The notes under the pieces: generated by a model
Told to the model about the DNA's origin: nothing
The model's input: the letters and a program-made list of their open reading frames with translations, nothing else
Database searches by the model: none
Shown here: piece after piece, positions 11,328 through 64,000 of the stretch
Numbering within the stretch: position 1 is the first letter of the stretch
Layout of the letters: every line of letters starts with the position of its first letter
NCBI GenBank assembly: GCA_003009755.1
Contig: PXUB01000022.1
Span: 1 to 64,000, forward strand
Origin: Thermoplasmatales archaeon SW_10_69_26
GTDB taxonomy: Archaea; Thermoplasmatota; SW-10-69-26
Reading direction: 5' to 3'
DNA: 64,000 nt
Program-made: the position numbers and the translations under genes

Positions 11328-12281
11328 GAGCCGATTCCCGGGGTCGAGGTGGAGATTCGTCGGCCCCGGGGAGCCCTTTCTCACCCACGATAGGTCTGTG
11401 TTGGGTGCTAACCGCTGGCTCTCAATAGACGTCACAGCATCCTCCGGTCGAACTCACACCACACGAAGACTGGCAATACTTGGGTTGGAGGCCTCGAAAC
11501 TCAGATGAGGAACTTCGAGAGCCCTCAGACCACGAGTTCAGCGGGAGGTGGCATCCGTGACCAGAGGACGACAACAGCTGCGATCGCCCTTGGCCGGATG
11601 ATTGGGGTGCCGATCGGCGGCACCGGCCGCCTGGCTGGTTCCCTGTCACGACCGCTTTCACGCCTGGCTTGATGGGGTAGATGGACTGGTTAGGGCTGGT
11701 TGGCCGCACGAAGCCCGAGTGAGACGCCGCGTTCAGGATCTGATGAAAATTCCCGCAGATGCCGCTCGTCATCGGCGTGCAGTAGCGGCGATCATGTGGG
11801 GGTATCGGGGATATCGCGACCCCCGTTTTGATGAAAGTTGCCGGCGATGCCGCGCGTTATCGGCTTGCGATAGCAGCGATCGTTCAGGGGCTACGACGGA
11901 GTTGAGGCCCCCCATTTTGACGAAAATTTCCTCGCCCACCGCGTGATGCGGCTACCGTGGAATCGGAAATTTTCTTCGCCATCGGCTCACGGTAGCGGCG
12001 TTCGTCCGGGGGGCTGCTGCGGATATCGAGGCCCCCCTTTTTAGTGAAAATTTCCTCGTCTACCGCGTGACGCAGACACCGTAGAACCGGAAATTTTCAA
12101 GGGGTGAGTCCCGGGCGCAGGTCGGCTTAGTGGGGCCCACGAGGGACCCGCACCATCCCAATCCCGAGTTCGTCCGCCGGCTCCCGCGAGGGAGCCCAGC
12201 AGGACATCGACCGGACTGGACAGGGCCCCTAAGCCGTTTTCTGCGAAAGCCTCAAGCCCCGTGAAATCGCGGTCCCAACGC
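11328..12281. other. Long noncoding region with repeat array
   Basis: About 950 bases without a convincing gene. The small open frames here (for example 11602-11946 plus and 11422-11772 minus) have no domain-like composition and cross the repeats. The first 400 bases are unremarkable. From 11742 to 12100 there is a degenerate tandem array with hairpins and T-runs, described separately. The region separates the A/T-rich hydrolase gene from trmY. Confidence 0.6.
11742..12100. repeat. Degenerate tandem repeats with G/C hairpins, T-runs and palindromes
   Basis: Units begin at about 11742 (88 bp), 11830 (89 bp) and 11919 (about 125 bp), with a partial fourth from about 12044. Each begins GA(T/C)GAAA or GTGAAA. 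The first three share an ATCGGC...TAGC(G/A)GCG core and end with a G-run...C-run hairpin followed by TTTT or TTTTT, as in a terminator. Units three and four also hold a 53-bp inverted repeat bounded by GAAAATTTCC and GGAAATTTTC, at 11922-11974 and 12046-12098. These two palindromes differ at eight positions, and one inner stem pair changes from C-G to T-A, which preserves pairing. Confidence 0.8.
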
Positions 12282-44016: not shown

Positions 44017-44964
44017 ATGAGCCAAGAAGAGCAACCCGCTGACATGGACGACGTCGAGGAGATCAACGAGTGCCCGGAATGCGGATCCGAGCACCTCACC
44101 CAGGACTACGAGCGAGGTGAGCTGATCTGCGAGACGTGTGGCCTCGTCCTCGACGAGACGTACATCGACCAAGGGCCCGAGTGGCGGGCCTTCGACGCCG
44201 AGCAGCGGGAGAAACGCGCACGCGTCGGTGCGCCGATGACGTACACGATCCACGACAAGGGCCTGTCGACCGAGATCGGCTGGCGTAACAAGGACTCCTA
44301 CGGGAAGAACATCCCCACGAAGTCCCGCGCCCAGCTGTACCGGCTGCGTAAGTGGCAACGCCGCATCCGCGTCTCCAACGCCACCGAGCGCAACCTCGCC
44401 TTCGCTCTGTCCGAGCTGGACCGCATGGCCTCGCGGATGGGGCTCCCGCGCAACGTGCGCGAGACCGCCGCGATGATCTACCGCCGCGCCGTCCAGAAGA
44501 ACCTGATCCGCGGCCGCTCGATCGAGGGCGTCGCCGCCGCGAGCCTGTACGCTGCCTGCCGGCAGTGCAACGTGCCGCGCACCCTCGACGAGATCGCCGA
44601 GGCCTCGCGCGTCTCGCGCAAGGAGATCGGCCGCACCTACCGGTTCATCGCCCGCGAGCTCAAGCTCAAGCTGTTGCCCACGAGCCCGACGGACTACATC
44701 CCGCGGTTCTGCAGCGAGCTCAAGCTCTCTGGCGAGATCCAGGCCAAGGCGGTCGAGATCCTCAAGCAGGCGGCCGACAAGGAGCTCACCAGCGGCCGAG
44801 GCCCCACCGGCGTCGCCGCCGCGGCCCTCTACATCGCCTCGATCCTGTGCGGTGAGCGCCGCACGCAGCGCGAGGTCGCCGACGTCGCCGGCGTGACCGA
44901 AGTGACGATTCGGAACCGCTACAAGGAATTGGCTGAGAAGCTGGACATTGACATCATCCTGTAG
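44017..44964 (+). CDS. tfb: Transcription initiation factor B (TFB)
   Basis: Archaeal TFIIB homologue of 315 residues that joins TBP at promoters and recruits RNA polymerase. The N-terminal zinc ribbon uses C19, C22, C38 and C41 (CPEC and CETC). The B-reader/linker contains PEWRAFD and RARVGAP. Two cyclin folds follow, each with a [17 protein letters not shown]- or [14 protein letters not shown]-type helix, and the last helix reads [20 protein letters not shown] 44017 has a good Shine-Dalgarno sequence. The last 50 bp recur intact 166 bp downstream. Confidence 0.97.
44914..44963 (+). repeat. Direct repeat copy 1: 3' end of tfb
   Basis: 50 bp ending in the first two bases of the stop codon. 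Copy 2 at 45080-45129 is identical except for one silent base (Ile ATT versus ATC). Confidence 0.95.
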
Positions 44965-45005
44965 AGGGATCACAGCTTCGAAGCCTCGGCGGTAGCGGTT
45001 CCGAA

Positions 45006-45345
45006 GAGTACGGGTCCGTCAGGACCCGTACGAATCTGGAGACGACCAGGGTCAGCCGTGTCAAGGTCGTCTCCAGAGTAACCGCTACAAGGAATTGGCT
45101 GAGAAGCTGGACATCGACATCATCCTGTAAGCGCGACGACGACCGCACGCGCTTGCAGGAGAGTACGAACGGCGCGACGTCCACGAGCGCGCGCCGTTCG
45201 TACGAATCGCCAGCGTCGTTAGCCCGGGAGCTACCGTGCGGGCTCGACGCTGGCGAGAGCCCGAACCGGCACCGGAGGCACGGTTCGGGCGAATCGCGGG
45301 CATCGCTAGCTCGGTCGATACCGTGCGAGATCGATGCTCGCGCCT
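45006..45345. repeat. Array of three GAAT-linked hairpin pairs
   Basis: Six strong inverted repeats in three pairs. Pair 1: stem 10 bp (45008-45017/45022-45031), then 12 bp (45036-45047/45065-45076). Pair 2: 14 bp (45163-45176/45190-45203), then 12 bp continued by 6 bp (45207-45218/45245-45256 and 45221-45226/45239-45244). Pair 3: 10 bp (45259-45268/45281-45290), then 11 bp with one G-T (45295-45305/45332-45342). In each pair the members are joined by GAAT (or GAA plus the first stem T), and each first hairpin is preceded by GA. Stem sequences differ completely, so structure and linker are conserved but sequence is not. Confidence 0.85.
45080..45129 (+). repeat. Direct repeat copy 2: displaced tfb tail
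   Basis: 49 of 50 bases match the tfb 3' end, in the same orientation, followed by TAA rather than TAG. It keeps the reading of the last 16 codons but has no start. It lies between two sets of hairpins, so it looks like a duplicated target or a tandem duplication of tail plus hairpin module. Confidence 0.95.
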
Positions 45346-61813: not shown

Positions 61814-64000
61814 TGCCCACGACCACGCTGAAGAAGCAGGCCCAAATGGCCGCGGCGAACGCAGACCCCGAAGCCCCGAAGGCTCTCCGCAACACGCACC
61901 TCTGGGACACACAAGGATACGGCAGCCCGCGCTACCAGGACCTCGTCACCGCGCGAACGCTCGAGCAAACCCACACCTTGCAGATCCCGATCGGGACGAT
62001 CAAGGAGCAGATCGCGACCACGCCCATCACGGTCCGCCCCACCGTGGACGACCCGACGGACGCGCACTGGGACGCCGCCGAGCAGGTGCTGGAGTGGCTG
62101 CAGGGCAACTTCAATCCGAACCGCGAGAGCTTCAGCCACTTCCTGAAGCAGATCACGAACGACATCCTGAGCATCGACGCTGGCGTCATCGAGCTCATCC
62201 CCGACAGCGAGGGCCTCCTCTGGGGGATGAAGGCCCGCGACGGCGCCGCGTTCACAAAGGACCCTGACGAGCACGGGTTCCTCCCGGAGCCCGGCAGCGA
62301 CGACACCGCCTACTGGCAGTTCGGCGCCGGCATGGGCCACCTCGCTATCGACCGGGACAAGACCTTCCGCGAGGCTCTGCTTGAGCAGCAGCAGGTGTTC
62401 AGCCAGGCCGGGATGCAGAAACCGGTCGCGTTCACGCGCGACGAGATCTGCTGGATCGAGACGAACCCGCGCTCCTGGCACGACTACGGTCTCGGGCGCG
62501 TCCAAATCGTGCAGCGCGTCGTCGAGATCATCGCGAACCAGGACGTCGAGAACAAGCGCTTCTTCACGAGCGGTGAACTCGCCGACCTCATCATGTCGCT
62601 ACCCGGCTTCAGCGACAACGACCTGGAGAACTTTAAGGAGTTCTGGACGGACGAAGTCGTCGGGCAAGAGCACGTCGCGCCCATGGTGAACCACGAGGTC
62701 GACGTGAACCGCCTGCGCCCACCCCTGCAGGACCTGCAGTTCCTCGAGAGCCAGGAGTGGTATCACAAGCTCGTGTGGTTCGCGTTCGGCGTCCCCGTCG
62801 GCGAGGTCGGCGAAAGCGCCGAGGTCAACCGCGCCACCGCCGAGTCCCACCGAGGCACGATGTGGGAGAAGACGACGCGCCCACTCATGCACTCGATCGA
62901 GCAGGAGATCAACGACACCGTCCTCATCTTCCACCCGGCCTGGCACGAGGTCGACGGCGAGCTTGAGTTCGCGTTCGACCCCGACTTCACGCCCAAGGAC
63001 GCCGAGCGCCGGCGCCGCCAGACCGAGGACCTAGCGAACGGCTTGGCCACGATCAACGAGGTCCGCCAAGAACGCGGCGAGGAAGAGGTCCCCTGGGGCG
63101 ACCTCCCCGACCCCTTGCTTCAGGCCGTCGCACGGAACCATCCCGAATGGGCGCTCGAGCACTGGGCCGACGTCGACGACCCGCCCGAGAGCGATCCCGG
63201 CATGGGGTTGCTCGGCGCCAACCCCAATGGCGGCGGCCCCCACGACCCCGACAACGATGATGGCGCCGCCGCCACCCAATCCCGGCCCCGGTCGCAAGCG
63301 CCGACCATGCAGGCGCTTGCGACGGAGCGCGACGCGCTGCGCGACACGGACGAGGGCGAGGGCGACGAGATCCCCCGCCAGGCACGGCGAGTCATCAGCC
63401 TCGCCAGCCAGCTGGGCACGATCATCGAGCGCGAGCTCACACTCGTCCTTGAGGACTTGCAGGACGAGTGGCCCAACCAGGACGAGGCCCAGCCTGACCG
63501 GAAGGCGTTCGCCCCCGACCTCGAGACGCTGGTCGGAACCATTCGGTTCGCGCCCGCTATGAAGGCCGCGGCCGTCGCCGCTGGCGAGGACGCACTCCAG
63601 GAGAGCGTCGACACGCACGCGGAGAACCTCGAGGAGGAGATCAACGACCTCGTCGAGGACGAGCCTGAGCTTGAGCTCGACCTGGACGTGGAGGACACGG
63701 CCGCACTCAAGCGCCTCGAGGAGAACGCCGGCTGGCGCATGGAGGAAGTCGAGGACACCGTCAAGGAGCGCATCAATCGGACCTTGTCGCGCGTCGCCGA
63801 GGGGGATGGCACCGTGGGCGACATGACCGAGGCGTTGCGCGAGGAGATCGACGCGATCACAAGCGAGCACGCCCGCACGGTGGCCCGGACCGAGGTCATG
63901 GACGCCAGCCGCGAAGGCTCACAGGCCTTGGCAGAGAGCACGAGCGTCGTCAATCGGAAGGAGTGGATGGCGACCAGCGACGCCCGCACGCGTCCCTGGC
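61813..64000 (+). CDS. Portal protein fused to a phage Mu F-like head morphogenesis domain (incomplete)
   Basis: Open frame of at least 729 codons from ATG 61813, continuing past the window. Residues about 1-440 fit a phage portal: helix-rich with ITNDILSIDAGVIELIP, EICWIETNPRSWHDYGLG and the C-terminal clip/crown-like FGVPVGEVGESAEVNRATAE. A Pro/Asn/Gly-rich linker follows (about 455-495). The last part ends with EHARTVARTEVMDASREGS and KEWMATSDARTRPW, the Mu gpF/MuF signature. Portal-MuF fusions let one polypeptide build the connector and carry an internal head protein. The C-terminus is missing because the window ends. Confidence 0.88.
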   Translation, partial: MPTTTLKKQAQMAAANADPEAPKALRNTHLWDTQGYGSPRYQDLVTARTLEQTHTLQIPIGTIKEQIATTPITVRPTVDDPTDAHWDAAEQVLEWLQGNFNPNRESFSHFLKQITNDILSIDAGVIELIPDSEGLLWGMKARDGAAFTKDPDEHGFLPEPGSDDTAYWQFGAGMGHLAIDRDKTFREALLEQQQVFSQAGMQKPVAFTRDEICWIETNPRSWHDYGLGRVQIVQRVVEIIANQDVENKRFFTSGELADLIMSLPGFSDNDLENFKEFWTDEVVGQEHVAPMVNHEVDVNRLRPPLQDLQFLESQEWYHKLVWFAFGVPVGEVGESAEVNRATAESHRGTMWEKTTRPLMHSIEQEINDTVLIFHPAWHEVDGELEFAFDPDFTPKDAERRRRQTEDLANGLATINEVRQERGEEEVPWGDLPDPLLQAVARNHPEWALEHWADVDDPPESDPGMGLLGANPNGGGPHDPDNDDGAAATQSRPRSQAPTMQALATERDALRDTDEGEGDEIPRQARRVISLASQLGTIIERELTLVLEDLQDEWPNQDEAQPDRKAFAPDLETLVGTIRFAPAMKAAAVAAGEDALQESVDTHAENLEEEINDLVEDEPELELDLDVEDTAALKRLEENAGWRMEEVEDTVKERINRTLSRVAEGDGTVGDMTEALREEIDAITSEHARTVARTEVMDASREGSQALAESTSVVNRKEWMATSDARTRPW

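Follow-up and report, generated by a model that had tools for sequence, protein, structure and literature searches.

The hairpins that follow the tfb gene of Thermoplasmatales archaeon SW_10_69_26 probably belong to a family of miniature integrative cassettes that is specific to this genome; the cassettes carry no genes and would be mobilised in trans by a site-specific recombinase. The family is real and high-copy, and its miniature hairpin cassettes, in which gene ends are restored, are apparently new; no published description of such cassettes was found in the open-access literature. The sequence itself shows the anatomy of the units, their copy number, their sense orientation at gene ends, the synonymously diverged duplicate gene tails and the target-matched hairpin arms. 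The source genome is a 2.8-Mb draft that is 95% complete and contains some masked stretches, and the window analysed here is a stretch of 64,000 nucleotides of it.

The hairpin array at the 3' end of tfb

The host gene tfb, which encodes archaeal transcription factor B, is an open reading frame at positions 44017-44964 on the plus strand (as are all features of the array), and its orthologues in class relatives are 91-94% identical. An earlier note on this DNA had described three modules of paired hairpins after the gene, and all of them are present where it placed them, at 45008-45342. The modules are real, but the array proved to be larger than described, beginning inside tfb and including a duplicate of the tfb tail. 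The first hairpin (hairpin 0, 44909-45005) is a perfect stem of 14 bp whose left arm lies within tfb (44909-44922) and whose right arm (44992-45005) is the exact reverse complement; the stop codon sits in the loop, and the same layout is repeated at other genes. Hairpin 0 is followed by a GA spacer (45006-45007; GA in 25 of 31 units), by hpA of the first unit (45008-45031), by a GAA linker (45032-45034; the commonest linker, 17 of 31) and by hpB (45035-45077).

The working copy of the duplicated tail comprises the last 17 codons of tfb (44914-44964), and the second copy stands at 45080-45130. The two differ only by ATT/ATC and by the stop codon (TAG/TAA); the 50-bp duplicate at 45080-45129, between modules 1 and 2, is 98% identical to the 3' end of tfb. 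The end of the displaced tail and its reverse complement form hairpin 0 of the second unit (45123-45160; arms 45123-45135 and 45148-45160, 12 of 13 bp paired), after which come hpA (45163-45203, E = 7.9e-15) and hpB (45207-45256), both of them covariance-model matches. The third module, matched by the model in both halves as well, consists of hpA at 45259-45290 (E = 5.1e-14) and hpB at 45295-45342, and its last stem contains one G.T wobble. At least two insertions would be stacked at tfb. Five perfect hairpins of at least 10 bp were counted in 356 bp at this locus, far above chance: 1000 dinucleotide shuffles yielded 0.04 on average and never more than 2.

The 3' end of tfb carries no array in the class relatives compared or in the family relative. 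One class relative has a tetraloop-hairpin cluster of its own downstream of tfb (L025 1320-1472, G003), the sequence of which is unrelated to the present family. Elsewhere in the otherwise GC-rich window, two similar AT-armed palindromes with related loops (GAAAATTTCC ... GGAAATTTTC) were seen at 11922-11974 and 12045-12099, and three perfect hairpins of 10-12 bp are clustered at 63228-63470 without the GA/GAAT pattern.

Unit architecture and pairing

A unit opens with the gene tail and a loop; next come the reverse complement of the gene end, which closes hairpin 0, and then GA, hpA, GAA(T) and hpB. At no fewer than ten loci the old tail of the gene stands behind the unit. When the extracted loci were scanned for a perfect hairpin separated by two nucleotides from hpA, 31 matches were obtained, two of them possibly in coding DNA. 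Their arms were 9-18 bp long, the dinucleotide was GA in 25 of the 31, and the arm usually began with T and ended with A. In tandem arrays, hpB stands in for hairpin 0 of the next hpA. The units are about 100-250 bp in size (all <300 bp), non-coding and nearly all hairpin, with hairpin spacers that span 12-105 nt. The GAAT linker reported earlier is indeed seen in all three tfb modules, but is better written as GAA plus T, as hpB often starts with T and ends with A. The stems had been called entirely different, which did not hold genome-wide: hpA stems fit GNMCGR, and most hpB stems fit CGCSAGCRTCG.

The proposal that pairing is under selection, or is otherwise maintained, was strongly supported. 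Over 71 matches, 96.9% of the cells were paired, and double-sided changes numbered 339 against a mean of 82 after shuffling. Of the paired cells, roughly 1,500 in all, about 25 were G-U (about 2%, a hand count from the table). Because the pairing is almost purely Watson-Crick, DNA is favoured over RNA as the paired form; the strict exchange fits DNA hairpins, cruciforms or palindrome correction better. A structured RNA, as the earlier note had suggested, or a 3'-UTR terminator or stabiliser with its fold selected at the ends of highly expressed genes, would agree with the sense orientation at gene 3' ends and with strong folds that carry compensatory changes. We nevertheless regard this explanation as very unlikely: G-U pairs are nearly absent, units lie inside or after tRNA genes together with tRNA-tail copies, synonymous gene tails are repeated, the family is absent from all relatives, and there was no Rfam match at the gathering level.

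Near-perfect arms that lack G-U pairs would also result from snap-back replication or template switching at gene ends, in which no mobile enzyme takes part and hairpin-templated correction keeps the palindromes perfect; the succession arm, reverse arm, arm is the classic product of such events. This process alone appears improbable as the source of the arrays, and it leaves unexplained both the hpA and hpB sequences common to about 35 unrelated loci and the tail copies that differ only synonymously.

Displaced gene tails, hosts and copy number

When working and displaced tails were compared across eight loci, leaving aside the codon cut by the junction, all 24 of the 24 codon differences were synonymous. 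AspRS contributed six of these (including CGA/AGA, AGA/CGG, AGG/CGT and CTG/TTG), COX3 four, rhodanese, thermosome and GuaA three each, and TFB two, none of these genes having a non-synonymous difference, and FBPase contributed one synonymous difference. In rpS2 one tail reads GCC TCG and the other GCA AGC, each paired with a reverse arm that fits it. The synonymous swaps include Ser TCG/AGC and Arg AGG/CGT, and stop codons are interchanged among TAG, TAA and TGA between tail copies. If a dead copy had drifted in place, the probability of no non-synonymous change would be about 3e-6, assuming that 27% of random changes are synonymous. Both tail copies must have served as working gene ends. The differences between them are nearly exclusively synonymous, and the two tails therefore come from different, diverged lineages, which in turn makes the units look like mobile, gene-end-restoring insertions; two-lineage tails are the expectation if an insertion carries its own tail. 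The oldest tail copies (HtpX and the Cys/Met PLP enzyme) contain non-synonymous changes, as decay predicts.

Three tails are stacked at COX3 and three at GuaA. At COX3, a single synonymous position (GTG vs GTC) separates the reverse arm from the host arm, as if the reverse arm kept a memory of a donor gene. Stacked tails would be a record of past exchanges of essential-gene ends between archaeal lineages. Third-position GC in the last 10 codons was 0.84 in array genes and 0.88 in other genes (p = 0.10), and we make no claim of recoding or of foreign codon use in the gene tails.

The arrays lie in sense at the 3' ends of conserved protein genes or tRNAs, some 20 of the former and about a dozen of the latter in one genome. 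Pfam identified the immediately upstream hosts, all in sense, as Spt5, CDC48, FBPase, rpS7, FttA, rpS2, aldehyde dehydrogenase, the Cys/Met PLP enzyme, transketolase, a GMP synthase C-terminal protein, an OB-fold protein, COX3, AspRS, an M48 peptidase, Cdc6, rhodanese, thermosome and MCM. TFB is a further host, and two additional host genes had no Pfam match. Among the tRNA hosts are three Gly, three Arg, two Leu, Asn, Pro, Ser, Phe and Glu, and no clear host could be assigned to some of the small or divergent arrays. The T-loop of tRNA-Arg(CCT), and likewise a T-loop at the far end of the integrase-bearing element at tRNA-Gly (C2), is cut exactly (GGTTCA^AATCCC) by a hairpin-GA-hpA-GA unit. 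Around tRNA-Ser(TGA) on C1 (L103 3700-4500), nested partial self-copies were observed, broken up by hairpin units near the D-arm, the anticodon loop and the T-loop.

Further copies, which the earlier note had proposed to seek with a covariance model, were found by the dozen in the same genome. The model, built from 14 modules, gave 53 matches in the source genome at E ≤ 0.01, BLAST of the tfb region against its own genome found about twenty additional sites, and the hairpin cassettes form about 35 clusters across the genome. This count of arrays may be incomplete, the perfect-hairpin scan having added two that the model missed. In 59 relatives, among them one family member and five other class members, the same model found no copy, nor did it find one in 389 other genomes from the phylum. 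The DNA pattern of the hpA-hpB junction gave five unrelated, near-chance matches only among 84,980 genome species, and no match in viral contigs.

Relation to known elements and the candidate mechanism

At TFB, AspRS, COX3, rhodanese, thermosome, GuaA and other genes, a direct repeat of the gene 3' end flanks the insert and an intact gene stands upstream. Gene-end-restoring integrative elements of archaea (iMGEs, PMC6563490) are likewise inserted in the 3' ends of tRNA or protein genes, with the tail as a direct repeat and the end re-supplied, but the present units are only about 100-250 bp, geneless and mostly hairpin, and a single family of them has over 30 different targets in this one genome. 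The array units encode no integrase of their own, and they have no constant att core, the arms differing at every target. The cassettes act like a target-repairing integrative element, yet they cannot be filed as one because they are without an integrase and a constant core. Phage 21 and e14 in the icd gene of E. coli reportedly also insert at a 3' end and restore the gene, leaving two tails that differ synonymously. Integrative elements are not known to use more than a few targets for each integrase; in this genome a single hairpin family stands at the ends of many genes and tRNAs, each copy fitted to its own target.

REP/BIME elements with their RAYT proteins (PMC3733652, PMC8266576) share with the cassettes the form of small, high-copy hairpins in composite arrays between genes. 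The earlier note had thought of hairpins recognised in single-stranded form, as in REP/BIME and IS200/IS605-like systems, and many short hairpins at gene ends, with constant flanks (GA, GAAT) and pairing of DNA type, would fit movement by an IS200/IS605 or RAYT transposase of the Y1 (HUH) class. We consider such an origin highly improbable. In the 95%-complete source genome we found no Y1_Tnp match, whereas 10 of 14 control genomes were positive, and the tetranucleotide tags at the hairpin foot (GTAG or CGTC; PMC3733652) are replaced by GA and GAA. The tails and arms of the cassettes are also gene-derived. REPs with gene tails are not known. The broad idea of mobile hairpins survives, in a form other than the IS200/IS605 or REP/RAYT one, which is unsupported.

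Arrays of palindromic sites with variable loops, possibly a tyrosine-recombinase substrate, also recall integron attC sites and CALINs (PMC8946536; archaeal integrons, PMC9668308), but the cassettes have near-perfect stems and lack R'/R'' boxes and cassette genes. The attC boxes (RYYYAAC ... GTTRRRY) were absent in four of the six arrays tested, with one or two matches at most in the others. Casposons can likewise target protein-gene 3' ends, such as ef-2 in thaumarchaea (PMC6563490), but no Cas1 was found in the source genome. Neither a reverse transcriptase nor intron RNA, as expected of a group II intron or retroelement, was found there.

Only three tyrosine recombinases are present in the source genome, and all lie in elements at tRNAs: Gly (C2), Phe (C19) and Glu (C1). 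The far end of each element is a copy of the same tRNA's tail inside a hairpin array, and at tRNA-Phe the integrase att repeat starts at CCGGCCTG, exactly where the arm of the array starts. Of the three integrase genes only that of C19 is intact, the C2 and C1 genes carrying frameshifts. In other genomes, relatives of the C19 integrase (best 39% identity, most 25-31%) adjoin tRNAs without arrays, and the tie to this enzyme is circumstantial for that reason; searching viral contigs for the integrase gave nothing, and no PDB relative was found by sequence. We only infer that a tyrosine recombinase is responsible. A serine recombinase lies at C7:55821 with no array nearby. Against the cassette reading count the facts that no unit encodes a recombinase, that neither an excised circle nor a presence/absence difference between strains was seen, that two of the three integrase genes are frameshifted, that the hairpin spacers are unlike the classical 6-8 bp overlap and that the oldest tail copies have non-synonymous changes.

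The arrays could alternatively be scars or attachment-site remnants of lost larger tyrosine-recombinase elements, and not independently moving cassettes. All three integrase-bearing elements do terminate in tRNA-tail copies with arrays, and archaeal integrated elements use 3'-distal parts of protein genes (PMC6563490). We find this unlikely, however, as 25 of 31 units share the same junction of reverse-complement arm, GA and hpA, a uniformity that independent deletions would not produce, and the integrase elements examined lack hpA-hpB beside their own ends (the C19 attL has none).

According to the preferred reading of mobile cassettes, a unit would enter either the T-arm of a tRNA or a conserved gene, the latter right at its 3' end or immediately ahead of it, and would leave the working tail, the reverse complement of the junction, GA, hpA, GAA(T), hpB and then the displaced tail. 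Successive insertions at one gene would build arrays. The units would move as DNA between lineages by site-specific recombination, with catalysis supplied in trans, probably by a tyrosine recombinase of the kind encoded in this genome's tRNA-integrated elements. The role of the units is likely selfish: the gene keeps its end, and the host acquires a 3' end rich in hairpins.

Unit loops were homologous (z 4.3-5.9) in three comparisons: tRNA-Phe with tRNA-Leu, two tRNA-Gly genes with each other, and CDC48 with a second gene. The arms of these units match their own, different targets. Such arms were either written from the target at insertion or corrected afterwards. Because homologous loops carry differing target-matched arms (tRNA-Phe/tRNA-Leu; CDC48/second gene), we tentatively raise the possibility, itself rather doubtful, of retargetable mobile DNA, whose machinery would write the reverse complement of the target end so that one family could adopt any conserved end. 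Arms written from the target, if that is how they arise, would amount to a new way for mobile DNA to choose its sites.

Two of the integrase-bearing elements carry restriction genes. In the 13.4-kb element at tRNA-Phe (C19, L122 5990-19400), the intact tyrosine recombinase is accompanied by a restriction pair, made up of a methylase and a ResIII-type protein, and by SIR2-like and HerA-like genes that lie next to each other and resemble a defence pair. The 4.3-kb element at tRNA-Gly(CCC) (C2, L084 3350-7680) contains a DNA methylase and a BamHI-family restriction enzyme, and its integrase is split by a frameshift.
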